NCBI RefSeq assembly: GCF_000526495.1
Contig: NZ_JAGE01000001.1
Location: 2,662,001-2,726,000, forward strand
Origin: Ruminiclostridium josui JCM 17888
GTDB lineage: Bacteria; Bacillota; Clostridia; Acetivibrionales; DSM-1351
Reading direction: 5' to 3'
Length of the DNA: 64,000 bases
Shown: positions 24,001-30,018 of the stretch, one piece after another
Layout: each line of letters begins with the position of its first letter
Numbering within the stretch: position 1 is the stretch's first letter
Notes under the pieces: generated by a model
What the model saw: the letters and a program-made list of their open reading frames with translations, nothing else
Told to the model about the DNA's origin: nothing
Database searches by the model: none
Position numbers and translations under genes: made by a program

Positions 24001-24145
24001 AGTTGCGGTGGTTGTTGCAAAACAGAAAGTTTTGATTTAATACCTGTACTTCCGTATAAATTGTATCAATGATTGCTTTCGTTGATGCAATTTATACTTA
24101 CGTAGGGCTAGAAAAGATAAAAATTAAGTTATGCGACCTTTCCAA
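24001..24145 (+). repeat. Foldback repeat, short degenerate copy (copy A)
   Basis: It shares TTGCAAAACAGAAA, the CCTGTACTTCCGTATAAATT stretch and TATCAATGATTGCTT with the two longer copies, then jumps directly to the right arm GATGCAATTTATACTTACGTA. The internal ~180 bases are missing. It lies between the convergent ABC-fusion and ArsR genes. Confidence 0.65.
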
Positions 24146-24677: not shown

Positions 24678-24815
24678 ATGAGCAGCAATAAAAAAAATAA
24701 GAAAAGCAATAAGCAGAATGAAGACGGTGCTTTCCACTCAAAAAATATAAAACATGATCCTCAAGCGGAAAGTGCCAGAGCAAAATTCGGTAAGGATACT
24801 CCTGCATCGGAGTAA
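24678..24815 (+). CDS. 45-residue CPC_1213-like small protein
   Basis: A short basic protein beginning MSSNKKNKKSNKQNEDGAF and continuing with NIKHDPQAESARAKFGKDT. The HDPQxESARAKxG motif recalls the CPC_1213 family of tiny clostridial proteins (from memory). It has AAGGAG 8 bases before its ATG and is followed by a structured repeat that could end transcription. Function unknown. Confidence 0.7.
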   Translation: MSSNKKNKKSNKQNEDGAFHSKNIKHDPQAESARAKFGKDTPASE

Positions 24816-24840
24816 TGATTATTAGATAGTATGAGATTTT

Positions 24841-25154
24841 AAAAAGATGCTGTTGCAAAACAGAAATACTTACTGCTTTAACACTAGTACTTCCGTATAA
24901 AATTATATCAATGATTGCTTCCAAGATATTTGCATGAGTTTCTAGCGGCTCAATATAAGATATTTTACCGTCGCGCACATTCATCGTCCATGATTCATTG
25001 TGTCGCTAAAACCTACATCCTGTAGGTTTTCCGGTAAAATATCTATCTTTCGCCGACAAACATCTGCAAATATCTTTAACCAAGCTTCCATTGATACAAT
25101 TTATACTCACGTACAGGTTAAAAGGTAAGAAGTAGTTTTGTAACAGCTTCTTTT
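24841..25154 (+). repeat. Foldback repeat, full copy (copy B)
   Basis: A nested palindrome of about 314 bases. Outer arms: AAAAAGATGCTGTTGCAAAAC with GTTTTGTAACAGCTTCTTTT. Middle arms: CCGTATAAAATTATATCAATG with the right-arm ATTGATACAATTTATACTC. Inner arms: GATATTTTACCG with CGGTAAAATATC. An apical hairpin reads AAAACCTACA-TCC-TGTAGGTTTT. No frame of useful length. It ends 13 bases beyond the stop codon of uppP. Confidence 0.8.
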
Positions 25155-25167
25155 AATCTGTCAATAT

Positions 25168-26013
25168 TTAAAAGAATCCCATAAATCCTGCTATTAATAC
25201 TACAACTGCGAAAATCATTCTGTATATTGCAAAGGATTTGAGAGGCTTTCTTTTCAGATATGAAATAAACTGACTTATTACAGCTACTGCGACTATAAAT
25301 GCTACTACAAACCCAACTGCAAGGGAGATTAGTTCGGCAGCCGGAAGTGAAGTAAGGCCTCCGATTTTAATTATTTCCAAAAGGCTATAGCCAAACATTA
25401 CCGGAATGGCAAGGAAGAATGAAAACTCTGCTCCTATGACAGTAGAAAGACCTGCAACCCATCCACCTATAATTGTAGAGGCTGAACGGGACATACCCGG
25501 AATTATTGCAAGACACTGGAAAGCACCGATTATTAAGGCTTGCTTTGGAGTTACACTCAGCTTTTGCTTACCGAGATTGTTTTTTCTGAATTTCTTTTCA
25601 GCATATATCATCCACAAACCGCCAAGTATAAGTACAATAGCAACTGTTACAGGGGTCATAAGATATTTTTCAACAGGCTTATCCAGTAGAAGTTTTACAG
25701 CTGCCCCAGGGAGACAGGCTATAAAAATCATAAACCAGAATTTGAAACCGGATTTTTCATACCCAACCTTTTGAGGAAAGAAATTAATAAGAGTATCTTT
25801 TATCTTTCTCCAATATAGCAGAACAACTGCCAATATGGCACCTAACTGAATTACGTATGTATACATTTCAACATAGTTCGGACTGGCACTTTTAAATCCC
25901 ATTATATTTTCAAAAATAATCAAATGCCCTGTTGAAGAAATAGGGAGAAACTCAGTAACGCCTTCAACAATTCCCAGAACTATTGATTTAAGCACAAATA
26001 ATAAAGTATCCAT
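25168..26013 (-). CDS. uppP: Undecaprenyl-diphosphate phosphatase (BacA/UppP)
   Basis: A 281-residue integral membrane enzyme that dephosphorylates undecaprenyl diphosphate to recycle the peptidoglycan lipid carrier; extra copies give bacitracin resistance. Both family signatures are present: EGVTEFLPISSTGHLI near the N-terminus and PGMSRSASTIIGGWVAGLS near residue 170. About eight membrane segments. AGGTGG precedes the ATG. It is a single gene with a foldback repeat just beyond its 3' end. Confidence 0.96.
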   Translation of the reverse strand: MDTLLFVLKSIVLGIVEGVTEFLPISSTGHLIIFENIMGFKSASPNYVEMYTYVIQLGAILAVVLLYWRKIKDTLINFFPQKVGYEKSGFKFWFMIFIACLPGAAVKLLLDKPVEKYLMTPVTVAIVLILGGLWMIYAEKKFRKNNLGKQKLSVTPKQALIIGAFQCLAIIPGMSRSASTIIGGWVAGLSTVIGAEFSFFLAIPVMFGYSLLEIIKIGGLTSLPAAELISLAVGFVVAFIVAVAVISQFISYLKRKPLKSFAIYRMIFAVVVLIAGFMGFF

Positions 26014-26307
26014 TTCCTACCACCTTTTTTAGATTAATTTTAGTTATGTATTTCCAGCTTACAACCTTTTGTATATAGGTTACTTAAATACTCAAAGTTA
26101 GTCAAGAAAACTTTGATACCGGGCAATAACACTAATTTTACGATTTTAGACACCCCATTGTCTGAAATGTTTTCAAAGAGAACGAAATAGGAAATATCAA
26201 AATTTAGCTTATTTATGGCATAATGGGTATAAATTATTATGGACAGGGTGGTGTGCGGACTGTAAAATATTTTTATATATTTATTTTATTTAACGGGAGT
26301 GTATACT

Positions 26308-27015
26308 GTGAGGCTTAGAAGAAAACCATGGGCAAGACCTGAACTGGCAGCATGTGATTTTTATGTTAAGGATCCGCCCAGTTATAAAGGAAAATGGAGA
26401 GAGTTTTTTGGTAATAACAATCCGATACATCTGGAACTGGGGTGCGGCAAGGGAGGCTTTATATCTAAACTTGCTGCTGATAATCAAAACATAAACTATA
26501 TAGCTGTAGATATAAAAAGTGAAGTTCTAGGACTTGCAAAACGAAAGATTGAGAAGGAATATAATGAAAGAGGCATTGAAATAAAGAATATCAGGCTTAT
26601 GTCTCAGAATATTGAGTTGATTGACAATATGTTGTCACCTGAAGATTCTATTGACAAGATATATATTAACTTCTGCAATCCGTGGCCTAAGACTCCGTAC
26701 AAGAAAAAAAGACTGACACACGGTAAACAGCTTATAAAATATAAGAAATTTATGGCGTCAGGTGCGGAAATATGGTTTAAGACTGATGATGATGGTCTTT
26801 TTAAAGATTCAGTAAAATATTTTGAAGAAAATGGGTTTATAATAAAATATAAAACATTTAATTTACATGAAAGCGGCTTTGAGGAAAATATTCTAACTGA
26901 GCATGAGATTATGTTCTCCGAAGAAGGAATTCCAATTAAATTTTTGATTGCAGAATATAGAATAGAACTACCAGAAGCTGCTTGCAATGGTACAAAAGCA
27001 AAAGAGGATAATTAA
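26308..27015 (+). CDS. trmB: tRNA (guanine-N7-)-methyltransferase
   Basis: A 235-residue SAM-dependent enzyme that makes m7G46 in the variable loop of tRNAs. SAM motif [11 protein letters not shown], the TrmB-specific NFCNPWPK and [13 protein letters not shown] are all present. GTG at 26308 gives the usual [12 protein letters not shown] start and has GGGAGTG 6 bases upstream; an earlier GTG at 26299 overlaps that ribosome site. The methyltransferase gene that follows starts 2 bases after its stop. Confidence 0.95.
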
Positions 27016-27017
27016 CT

Positions 27018-27743
27018 ATGTCATTTTATCAAAAGATTTCTAAATATTACGATTACATTTTTCCAACGGGAAAAGAGCAGATTGATTTCCTTAGGGAAAT
27101 TGCGGGTGAACCACCAAAATCCATACTAGATATAGCCTGTGGTACAGGGGGATATTCTCTTGAACTGGAAAGACAGGGCTACAATGTAACAGCTGTGGAT
27201 TTAGACAAAGAAATGATAAATCGCCTTGAAATTAAAGCAAAAGAAAATAATCAATCAGTAAGGTTTATGCAGGGAAATATGCTTGAACTGGGGAATAAGA
27301 TTTCTGATAGCTTTGATTTGGTTTTTTGTATTGGAAACTCCATAGTACATCTTGAAAACTTGGAGCAGATAAGGGATTTTATAAAGACTACAAAACAGCT
27401 GACGGGTAAAGATGGCAACCTTGTGCTGCAGATAATAAACTTTGACAGAATAATACTGAGGGATATAAAGAGTCTGCCTACTATTGAAAACAAAGAAATG
27501 GGACTTACTTTTGAGAGAAATTACAGATACGACAAGAACTGCAACAGGATATATTTTAATACTTGTCTTAGTGTTGACGGAGAAGTATATAAAAATGAAA
27601 TACCTCTTTATCCCCTTAGGGAGGACGAACTAGTAGAAGCGGTTTCGGAGTCAGGGTTCAAAAGAGTAAAACTTTTTTCAGATTTTAACGGAAATGAGTT
27701 TGACAAATACAACTCATTTATGTTAGTACTTTGGGCAAGATAG
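27018..27743 (+). CDS. Class I SAM-dependent methyltransferase
   Basis: A 241-residue protein with methyltransferase motif I (SILDIACGTGGYSLEL), the motif II acidic residue (VTAVDLDKEM) and motif IV (FDLVFCIGNSIVHL). The substrate is unknown; the type resembles small-molecule methyltransferases often annotated as UbiE-like. It is translationally coupled to trmB (2-base gap). Confidence 0.88.
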   Translation: MSFYQKISKYYDYIFPTGKEQIDFLREIAGEPPKSILDIACGTGGYSLELERQGYNVTAVDLDKEMINRLEIKAKENNQSVRFMQGNMLELGNKISDSFDLVFCIGNSIVHLENLEQIRDFIKTTKQLTGKDGNLVLQIINFDRIILRDIKSLPTIENKEMGLTFERNYRYDKNCNRIYFNTCLSVDGEVYKNEIPLYPLREDELVEAVSESGFKRVKLFSDFNGNEFDKYNSFMLVLWAR

Positions 27744-27792
27744 CATGTCTTTAGAACAGTAATGTAATTAGATGGGGAAGGGATTGTAATTT

Positions 27793-28485
27793 ATGAGTAG
27801 AATAGGCCAAGACATAAATAAGGTGAGGCTAAAAAAAGGAATGACTCCAAAGCAGCTTGCAAAAGCACTGGGAGTTTCAGAAAGATATATACTGGATATT
27901 GAATCCGGCAAAAAAATAGTTAGTGATGACATGATTGGGAGAATATCGAAGGCACTTGACTTTGAACTTGGGCCTATAGGGCTTTTTGCTTCAGATGATA
28001 AGTTTGCACCGGATATTAGAAAGGATGAAAATGTACGTTCCGTTAAAAAAGTGGCACCGGTTGCTTCTGACGGGCCTGTACAGCAGGTATGGGATGATGC
28101 TTTCGGAAATATTTTAAAAACTGTACCGGTTTATGGCTACAAGATGGACAGGATTATTGACAAAAAACTGCTTCCTATCGAAAAAAACAAGGTGGAGGGT
28201 TACGCAAAAGAAAAGGTTTTCTATTTGATTATAGAAGACACTGATATGGCCGGTTTCAGAATATTTAAAGGGGACAGGGCCTTTGGAGTTCTTGAAAATC
28301 AGATAGACAAGGACGGCTTTTTTCTTATTGAATACAATGGTGAAAGAGTTGTAAGGCAGGTAAAAAAACTTCAGGGGGACAAGCTTCTTCTGGTATACAA
28401 TAGAGGAACCCTTATAACAGAAACTGTAAGTACCAAGGAAATCAAGGTAATTGCTAGACTGGTAAAGCTGGAAGTAATTCTTTAA
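27793..28485 (+). CDS. XRE regulator with S24-like domain lacking the protease Ser/Lys
   Basis: A 230-residue protein. Residues ~5-60 form a helix-turn-helix (TPKQLAKALGVSERYILDIE). Residues ~140-225 look like the LexA/CI-type S24 domain: EDTDMAGFRIFKGDRAF aligns with the usual DSMxP...GD segment, and GERVVRQVKKL with the segment that carries the catalytic Lys. The Ser is replaced by Asp/Thr and the Lys position reads Arg, so self-cleavage seems impossible. It may bind DNA as a dimer through the S24 fold without SOS inactivation. It lies 50 bases after the methyltransferase gene. Confidence 0.75.
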   Translation: MSRIGQDINKVRLKKGMTPKQLAKALGVSERYILDIESGKKIVSDDMIGRISKALDFELGPIGLFASDDKFAPDIRKDENVRSVKKVAPVASDGPVQQVWDDAFGNILKTVPVYGYKMDRIIDKKLLPIEKNKVEGYAKEKVFYLIIEDTDMAGFRIFKGDRAFGVLENQIDKDGFFLIEYNGERVVRQVKKLQGDKLLLVYNRGTLITETVSTKEIKVIARLVKLEVIL

Positions 28486-28545
28486 GAAAAGTTTTAGTAA
28501 GTAGAATACAGAAATTTATAATATAAAAAAACAGGAGATTACATA

Positions 28546-29679
28546 ATGATGGCAAATGGAGCATACTATACACAAGCATATCCGGATTTATTTTCTGAAA
28601 TAGGTATTTCCAGTGAATTAATCAAAAAAAAGATAGATGAAACTTTCAATACCATGTTTTTTGACCCGGAGGAGAAGATTTATTTTGAAATGGGTAACGA
28701 CATGGGATATATATTGGATACAGGTAATAACGATGCACGAACCGAGGGAATGAGCTACGGTATGATGATGGCTGTTCAGATGGACCGAAAGGACATATTT
28801 GACAGGCTGTGGCTTTTTTCAAAAACATATATGCAGCATACCAAAGGTAAATATCAGGGCTATTTTGCATGGTCAGTGGCACCTGACGGTACAAAGAATT
28901 ATGATGGCCCCGCACCCGACGGTGAAGAGTATTTTGCAATGGCGCTTTTCTTTGCCAGCAGCAGATGGGGAGACGGGATTCCGCCTTTTAACTACAGTAC
29001 TCAGGCAAAAGAAATTTTAAGACACTGCTTGCATCAACCGGAAATTGTTAAAGGCGGAAAAGCCATGTGGGACAAATCAAACTACTATATAAAATTTGTT
29101 CCCGAAGCAGCTTATTCAGACCCGTCATACCATTTACCTCATTTTTATGAACTGTTTGCACTAAAGGCATATGAAGAGGACAGGCCTTTTTGGAAAAAAG
29201 CTGCAGAGGAAAGCAGAAAGTATCTTCATTTGTCATGTAACAAAGATACTGGAATGGCACCTGAATATGCAAATTTTGACGGTACTCCCAAGTTGTTGTT
29301 CAGGGATTATGAATTCTATTCAGATGCATACAGAGTAGCTATGAATATAGGATTGGATGCAGCTTGGTTTAACAAGGATGAGTCTCTGGGAGAGATAGTA
29401 GATAAATTACAGGCATTTTTCAGTGAAAATACCGAACTGGGCGAATACAAGGCCTATACTATTAAAGGAGAACCCTTTGATGAGCCTGCTATGCACCCGG
29501 TTGCAATAATTGCAACCAATGCAGCTGGTTCATTGGCAGCAAAAGGAAAATACCGAAAGCAGTGGGTCAAGGATTTCTGGGAACTCCCATTAAGAAAAGG
29601 AGAACGCAGGTATTACGATAACTGTCTTTATTTTTTCAGTTTGCTGATGTTGGCGGGTGAATACAGAATATACATGTAG
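28546..29679 (+). CDS. GH8 reducing-end xylose-releasing exo-oligoxylanase (Rex type)
   Basis: A 377-residue glycoside hydrolase family 8 enzyme without a signal peptide, hence cytoplasmic. Length and motifs match Rex enzymes, which remove xylose from the reducing end of xylo-oligosaccharides. NDARTEGMSYGMM holds the general acid Glu67, and YSDAYRVAMN holds the likely base Asp260. ACAGGAGA precedes the ATG pair at 28546/28549. It indicates that the cell imports and digests xylan fragments inside. It is not next to a transporter, and a foldback repeat follows. Confidence 0.92.
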   Translation: MMANGAYYTQAYPDLFSEIGISSELIKKKIDETFNTMFFDPEEKIYFEMGNDMGYILDTGNNDARTEGMSYGMMMAVQMDRKDIFDRLWLFSKTYMQHTKGKYQGYFAWSVAPDGTKNYDGPAPDGEEYFAMALFFASSRWGDGIPPFNYSTQAKEILRHCLHQPEIVKGGKAMWDKSNYYIKFVPEAAYSDPSYHLPHFYELFALKAYEEDRPFWKKAAEESRKYLHLSCNKDTGMAPEYANFDGTPKLLFRDYEFYSDAYRVAMNIGLDAAWFNKDESLGEIVDKLQAFFSENTELGEYKAYTIKGEPFDEPAMHPVAIIATNAAGSLAAKGKYRKQWVKDFWELPLRKGERRYYDNCLYFFSLLMLAGEYRIYM

Positions 29680-29686
29680 TTTATTA

Positions 29687-30018
29687 AAAAAAGTGCAGAT
29701 GGGGTACTTGCAAAACAGAAATGTTTTTGTTTTAACACCTGTACGCCGTATAAATTATATCAATGATTGCTTCCAAGATATTTGCAATAGTTTCTAACGG
29801 CTCGTCATAGGATATTTTACCGTCGCTCACATTCATCATCCATGATTCATTGTGTCGCTAAAACCTTCGTCGTGAAGGTTTTCCGGTAAAATATCCTTGC
29901 TTCGCCGATAAACTAGTGAAAATATCTTTAACCAAGCTTCCATTGATATAATTTATACTCTATGTACAGGTTTAACAAAATACAATTTTGATTTTGCGAT
30001 AACCCACTGCACTTTTTT
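29687..30018 (+). repeat. Foldback repeat, full copy (copy C)
   Basis: About 332 bases, same orientation as copy B and very similar in the core. Outer arms: AAAAAAGTGCAG with CTGCACTTTTTT. Middle arms: CCGTATAAATTATATCAATG with CATTGATATAATTTATACTC. Inner arms: GGATATTTTACCG with CGGTAAAATATCC. An apical hairpin reads AAAACCTTC-GTCGT-GAAGGTTTT. The outer and apical stems differ from copy B in sequence but keep pairing. It fills the gap between the GH8 and ABC genes; the remaining ~150 bases hold no gene. Confidence 0.82.

Follow-up and report, generated by a model that had tools for sequence, protein, structure and literature searches.

Several described systems come close to the family of intergenic palindromes reported here, three copies of which lie in a 64,000-nt stretch of the genome of Ruminiclostridium josui JCM 17888 (contig NZ_JAGE01000001.1, positions 2,662,001 to 2,726,000 of the forward strand; hereafter the window). 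REP palindromes are far shorter and are linked to RAYT transposases, the insertion sequence (IS) IS1397 targets the loops of REP/BIME palindromes, and the Yersinia element YPAL (RU-2) reportedly prefers gene 3′ ends and terminators. For IS1272, an IS1182-family element of staphylococci, two reports describe inverted-repeat-replacing transposition (Furi 2016 PMC4923244; Wan 2017 PMC5678879): the targets are hairpins without sequence consensus, terminators among them, the stem-loop is deleted, no target duplication arises, and both orientations occur at one target. The terminal repeats of IS1272, as given there, measure 16 bp, compared with about 15 here; however, IS1272 is a full IS, whereas our element is a 300-nt palindrome that carries no gene, is present in Ruminiclostridium genomes in tens of copies each and has, in some of them, a full IS1182-family partner. 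YPAL is similarly a palindromic miniature element located at or beside dyad symmetries, with filled and empty sites among relatives, but its description gives target duplications of 3–26 bp and lists it without terminal inverted repeats (Delihas 2007 PMC2229807); at the sites that we compared, the hairpin is replaced and no target duplication was seen by eye. The REP/BIME palindromes with ISPpu9 are, according to PMC1525189, intergenic palindromes used as preferred IS targets, as the apical loop is used here by an IS3-family element; the present palindrome differs in its length of about 300 nt and its IS1182-type ends. Finally, SPRITE, BOX and RUP of Streptococcus pneumoniae, compared by description only, belong to the small interspersed repeats, and one of them resembles a terminator; terminator replacement goes unmentioned in the available part of PMC10969869.

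Each part of the system described below has a known parallel, and the combination is not found in the literature searched. No paper on this element or on its combination of traits came up in that search, which left most subscription journals outside, and the words Term-seq, repetitive, transposon, palindrom and mobile are absent from a report on the terminators of these clostridia (PMC9045158).

Very probably, the palindrome is a miniature inverted-repeat transposable element (MITE) that is moved in trans by a hairpin-targeting IS1182-family transposase, replaces terminators, then acts as a terminator itself and subsequently decays. It would be a non-autonomous transposon with terminal repeats near GGGGYTGTYGCAAAA, and the transposase acting on it would target DNA hairpins, chiefly intrinsic terminators. 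Insertion would replace the hairpin without duplicating the target, so that a new bidirectional terminator would take the place of the old one, and it would be tolerated because the element folds back, with its GGGG...CCCC ends placed between the A-tract and the T-tract of the host. Later, copies would shrink inwards from the apex, and they may end as short, often perfect hairpins.

The family is large. The genome of the window (G000; 4.47 Mb, two contigs) contains 40 merged sites, 20 per strand; at 20 of the 40 the match extends over at least 200 nt. With this spread, a purely local duplication, the alternative that the original prediction had kept in reserve, can be set aside. Matches at E ≤ 1e-5 occur in nine of 11 genomes of the genus (G002 to G008 denote Ruminiclostridium genomes other than that of the window, and L-numbers individual loci or alleles in these genomes). 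Five of 291 genomes in a class-level sample, with two candidates scored per genome, gave a match and all belong to the same genus; in the searches made, the family was thus found only in Ruminiclostridium, whose members degrade cellulose. Seven stretches of Ruminiclostridium papyrosolvens C7 came up in an exact-pattern scan of contigs, along with one match that looks unrelated.

Five genomes (G000, G002, G005, G006 and G007) contributed 73 non-redundant copies to a consensus of 324 positions, which runs AAAAAAGGGGTTGTTGCAAAAC...TTTTGCGACAACCCCTTTTTTT with a long imperfect palindrome between. Its interior is the most conserved part, many interior columns reaching at least 97% identity, poorly pairing ones included. 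The segment at about 136–171 pairs poorly, yet is among the most conserved stretches. Diverged copies in G003 (L200) and G004 (L201) have a recognisable interior and outer ends unlike those of the copies of other species. The earlier statement that the element has no coding capacity was borne out, as a codon signal is absent across the 73 copies. Two overlapping small open reading frames (ORFs) on the minus strand looked protein-like and had no Pfam and no plasmid match; coding was rejected, as their frames are interrupted by stops in the consensus and their synonymous shares (0.27 and 0.29 against 0.23 and 0.25 expected) resemble those of other frames. According to mechanical ORF calls, ORF 3′ ends flank 53 of the 73 copies on both sides, another 15 have a 3′ end on one side and a 5′ end on the other, one is beside a 3′ end only, and four are unplaced (two short of flank, one with a short ORF ignored by the script and one with 5′ calls on both sides). 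The consensus and this placement give the features of a terminator, a stem rich in G+C with a T-run behind it, located at gene 3′ ends, with an outer stem that is often imperfect in single copies.

The main result comes from the comparison with relatives. Corresponding sites were located via their joined flanks for 19 copies of the window's genome (of 21 prepared) and for 16 copies from other genomes; intervals were picked for a short gap, the presence of a hairpin not being a criterion, and the syntenic region of the window was added. This comparison, of a kind recommended in the original prediction, yielded 20 sites with alleles that lack the element. Of the 47 element-free alleles at these sites, which are homologous within a site and hence not independent, 44 form a hairpin that lies beyond the 5th percentile of shuffles of single letters (three per allele). 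The remaining three are L118 and L124, with weaker hairpins, and L216, with none worth the name; left out of the 47 were the mini-hairpins L154, L209 and L213, as well as L226, where the region missed the site, and L227. For instance, relatives have the terminator AAAAAGGCTGCCCTAAAAGGGCAACCTTTTT at the site of copy L002 and AAAAACCGGCGATTAGCCGGTTTTT at that of L019, both copies of the window's genome. Filled alleles, 32 of them from 19 sites, were searched for the unsplit core of the hairpin that the relatives have, with up to 20% errors and at most 6 allowed, and it turned up in none; split arms were judged by eye only. The hairpin being present in element-free alleles and its core missing in filled ones, the element replaces the hairpin. 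Filled sites keep the A-tract and the T-tract or, at copy C of the window, L010, L012 and L028, a lower stem (by eye); at L019 both tracts are lost too. Together, the position of the element and its taking the place of terminators strongly suggest that it serves as a bidirectional terminator, as the original prediction had put forward among other options.

The direction of change can be read at five sites. In a tree of one 2.2-kb region with four outgroup genomes, G002 branches first, then G000, and then G006, G005 and G007 (supports 0.997 and 0.984). At L002, L010, L019, L025 and L028, G002 and the sister species have a plain terminator (at L010, G006 gave one flank only). Since G002 lies outside the group formed by G000 and G005 to G007, the plain terminator is, on this phylogeny, ancestral at these sites and the element arrived on the branch of G000. 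Copies that occupy the same site in two species form 31 pairs; the similarity of nine exceeds that of 95% of unrelated pairs, and that of 22 does not, which points to a mixed origin: some copies seem to have been inherited, and repeated hits or homogenisation may account for others. At two terminators, the element has opposite orientations in different species (L006 versus L054, and copy C versus L113), by inversion or by a second hit.

A likely mobiliser was found in a search with PF05598 at E ≤ 1e-5 over the 11 genomes, made after reading on IS1272. It gave 21 loci in six genomes, ten of which sit in a 1.87-kb element (one copy in G000, three in G005, five in G007 and one in G008; Table 1), the remaining 11 lacking both ends together. 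The ends of this IS are GGGGCTGTTGCACAA (GCGGCTGTTGCACAA in G000, GGGGCTGTTGCAAAA in G008) and GGGAGTGTCGCAAAA, both within two mismatches of GGGGYTGTYRCAAAA in all ten copies; the element is preceded by A-rich and followed by T-rich sequence, and each end is a hairpin by itself (−31.4 and −22.1 kcal/mol over 50 nt). The G000 copy has an open 533-codon gene, whose product, the only one tested against NCBIfam, is an IS1182-family transposase (NF033551, 381.7 bits, cut-off 270). The IS and the palindrome are both present in three genomes (G000, G005 and G007), and their ends are nearly identical over about 15 nt. They also share their mode of target use. The sites of five of the ten IS copies were sought in relatives; four gave IS-free alleles, all four with terminator hairpins, and the L230 site gave no informative allele. 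At the L234 site, the terminator of G006 is TTAAAAAACAAGAACCCTGCTACTGCTGGGTTCTTGTTTTTTTAG, and G007 is without 22 nt of the upper hairpin, a clean gap between the kept AAAACAA and TTGTTTT. At palindrome and IS sites alike, the hairpin target is removed without visible duplication, as is typical of the IS1182 type; L227, a palindrome site, does not fit. At the L240 site, occupied by the IS in G005, G002 has a mini-hairpin with the ends of the palindrome. We infer from these comparisons that the IS1182-family element is the likely mobiliser of the palindrome. The suggestion of a MITE-like mobile unit in the original prediction has therefore gained support from the dispersal of non-coding copies over 40 sites on both strands, from the 20 sites that are filled or empty (five of them with a direction) and from the terminal inverted repeats held in common with an autonomous element. 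Two solo hairpins of G000, L096 and L109, start like one end of the IS1182-family element; they could be end remnants or the smallest mobile form. An IS3-family-like element with the end GGGGTTGTCCCAAAA (L095) was considered as a parent and set aside, as its ends fit worse.

Several observations weigh against this reading. PF05598 at E ≤ 1e-5 has no match in G002 and G006, which are rich in copies (nor in G003 and G004), and G008 has the IS without the palindrome, so that mobilisation would be a past event or the work of another enzyme. Outside the ends, the palindrome matches the IS over a single 14-nt stretch and is thus not a plain deletion derivative of it. In the 73 copies the ends are more variable than the interior, which is unusual in a young MITE. 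Moreover, G000 has neither the element nor a strong hairpin at the site of L183 (allele L216), and G007 has, at the site of L171 (allele L227), a remnant of the right end of the element with a separate plain terminator just beyond, an arrangement that plain replacement leaves unexplained.

The three copies of the window stand where they had been reported, in a single orientation and all past gene 3′ ends, as inspection of sequence and ORFs confirms, and copies B and C fold strongly in comparison with dinucleotide shuffles (Table 1). Copy C is set between tandem ORFs. The paired difference between its outer arms and those of copy B had been taken as covariation, a claim that fails: the allele of G007 without copy C is an ordinary terminator, GTGCAGATGATTATTTTAAAAATAGTCTTCTGCACTTTTTT, as is that of G006, and since these genomes carry the plain terminator at this site, the outer arms AAAAAAGTGCAG/CTGCACTTTTTT of copy C are host sequence, the kept lower stem of the terminator. 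The copy that G005 has at the same terminator is shortened and oppositely oriented. Next to copy B is a 45-codon ORF (24678–24815, read by eye). In G006 a 371-codon gene lies between two terminator sites, and this gene is missing in the window (24816–25167); the left flank of copy B is that of a copy after a short ORF, and its right flank is the one located beside ORF 25168–26013. The gene between these flanks in G006 makes it likely that copy B was formed by a deletion, via recombination between two copies of the element.

Table 1. Copies of the palindrome in the window, with their parts, and loci of the 1.87-kb IS (fold z-scores are against dinucleotide shuffles)
Feature	Position or locus	Strand	Remarks
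Copy A	24001..24145	+	Internally deleted element, flanked by two convergent ORFs
Copy A, left terminal repeat GTGGTTGTTGCAAAA	24008..24022	+	End-pattern match (G000:C1:2686008-2686022)
Copy B	24846..25150	+	Full-length; between 45-codon ORF and convergent ORF 25168-26013; fold z −14.9
Copy B, left terminal repeat	24846..24860	+	Read against 73-copy consensus
Copy B, right terminal repeat	25136..25150	-	Read against 73-copy consensus
Copy B, apical stem-loop AAAACCTACA/TGTAGGTTTT	25008..25030	.	Covarying part; in G007 this apex is targeted by the IS3-family element
Copy C, left half of kept lower stem of host terminator (A-tract and GTGCAGAT)	29687..29700	.	Element-free G006 and G007 alleles
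Copy C	29701..30005	+	Full-length, inside host stem 29687-30018; fold z −14.0 including host stem
Copy C, apical stem-loop AAAACCTTC/GAAGGTTTT	29860..29882	.	Covariation test
Copy C, right half of kept lower stem of host terminator, with T-tract	30006..30018	.	Element-free G006 and G007 alleles
1.87-kb IS	L229 (G000); L230, L234, L239, L243, L246 (G007); L231, L235, L240 (G005); L228 (G008)

Shortened forms of the palindrome are found in several genomes. At L092, G000 has an 83-nt form and G007 a long copy at the same site; a search with the end pattern located even shorter hairpins that bear the ends, among them L097 (44 nt) and L100 (20 nt, perhaps by chance), and in relatives such hairpins include L154, L209 and L213. 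L113 has one arm rebuilt as a clear mirror of the other, as does L140 (by eye), and L113, L140, L154 and L209 are perfect fold-back derivatives. Such mirrored arms are what fold-back template switching would produce. The repeated hairpin correction considered in the original prediction hence applies to individual copies (L113 and, by eye, L140 and L154) and was rejected as a general process, since distinct left and right types are retained in 73 of the 77 arm pairs. The four pairs without distinct types include the L113 mirror; for two others, copy A and L171, a single-base change in a left arm may be the reason.

The apex of the palindrome is itself a target. An IS3-family element of G007 (NF033516; ends TGATATGCTCCC...GGGAGCATATCA; L085–L088), counted at E ≤ 1e-60, has all four of its copies in the apical loop of a palindrome, in both orientations, with the 3-nt duplications TCG, TCG and TAG in three and a CGA/CCA mismatch in the fourth (by eye). 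This is loop targeting of the IS1397 kind, with a short duplication. Around two more distant relatives of this element in G004 (63% and 50%), no clear match to the palindrome was seen. At L090 of G007, the apex holds only a short hairpin of two IS3-element ends, a deleted copy of that element.

Paired changes in the apical stem had been read as a sign of a selected fold, and a structured RNA family had been one of the options proposed. We evaluated covariation with our own tree-aware test on 118 pairs with 30 null alignments. Significance at E < 0.05 was reached by 175:193 (E 2e-4) and by 180:188 (E 0.009), two apical pairs that rank first and second of all column pairs, so that the apical observation stood. 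No pair of the outer arms reaches this level, and the outer part of the earlier observation was not upheld; the outer helices vary without significant covariation, and the inner helices are near invariant and therefore uninformative. The pair 175:193 is AT in 57 copies, CG in eight, TA in four and AC in one, and 180:188 is AT in 66 and TA in five. Both change by double transversions with intermediates nearly absent, and mismatched forms are present at the apical neighbours 177:191, 178:190 and 181:187; the apical covariation may come from fold-back correction or from inherited variants. A structured RNA acting in transcripts, as a regulatory or mRNA-stabilising 3′ element whose spread would be a side issue, could draw on the very stable fold, the position at gene 3′ ends, the two covarying pairs and the conservation of interior columns, even where they pair poorly. 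We nevertheless think it highly improbable, because covariation is limited to two apical pairs of the 118, with hardly any intermediates, because both orientations occur, and because the window has no match to Rfam at gathering thresholds over its whole length. In addition, G-U pairs do not significantly exceed A-C pairs on the transcribed strand of the 16 copies with one defined direction (52 versus 40, p 0.25), and in the element orientation of all 73 copies A-C pairs are in excess (150 G-U versus 203 A-C, p 0.006, uncorrected for relatedness), which runs counter to a signal of RNA from this strand. Little beyond the stable fold supports the structured RNA option.

Two further explanations start from the terminators themselves. 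The element could have inserted in the ordinary way into the terminator loop, with the host stem lost later, and the lower stem kept on both sides at copy C, L010, L012 and L028 would suit such a course. The upper hairpin, however, is missing at the compared sites, including four sites of the IS1182-family element, and at the L234 site the 22 nt are cleanly absent between the kept arms; loop insertion seems improbable, if somewhat less so than an RNA function. Alternatively, terminators may spread by ectopic copying, through template switching or gene conversion via the A- and T-tracts and without a transposase. Replacement between an A-tract and a T-tract without visible duplication would agree with this, and the fold-back derivatives indicate that template switching happens. 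Yet the tracts were lost as well at L019, and an autonomous IS with near-identical ends occupies terminators in the same manner, as does the published IS1272, so that we give ectopic copying the least credence of the three. Transposition by hairpin replacement, with an IS1182-family transposase acting in trans, is the explanation that we retain.

Our results join two ideas that have been separate, the hairpin-erasing IS of staphylococci and the terminator-associated palindromic repeats. We put forward tentatively, and with slightly less than even confidence, that hairpin-targeting transposition is a standing source of new terminators in the genus: the palindrome would take over the places of host terminators, terminate in both directions from the outset, and later be trimmed to short hairpins resembling native ones, so that part of the genus's terminators would be transposons that have become domesticated, with the same sites rewritten again and again. 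In the palindromes of G007, an IS3-family element specific for loops has a natural set of targets. If the proposed mechanism is true, the transposon itself repairs the loss of its target, which would explain the tens of harmless copies at gene ends, and one could see how a mobile element turns into an everyday regulatory signal, a path that the series from full to shortened copies in five sequenced species makes measurable.

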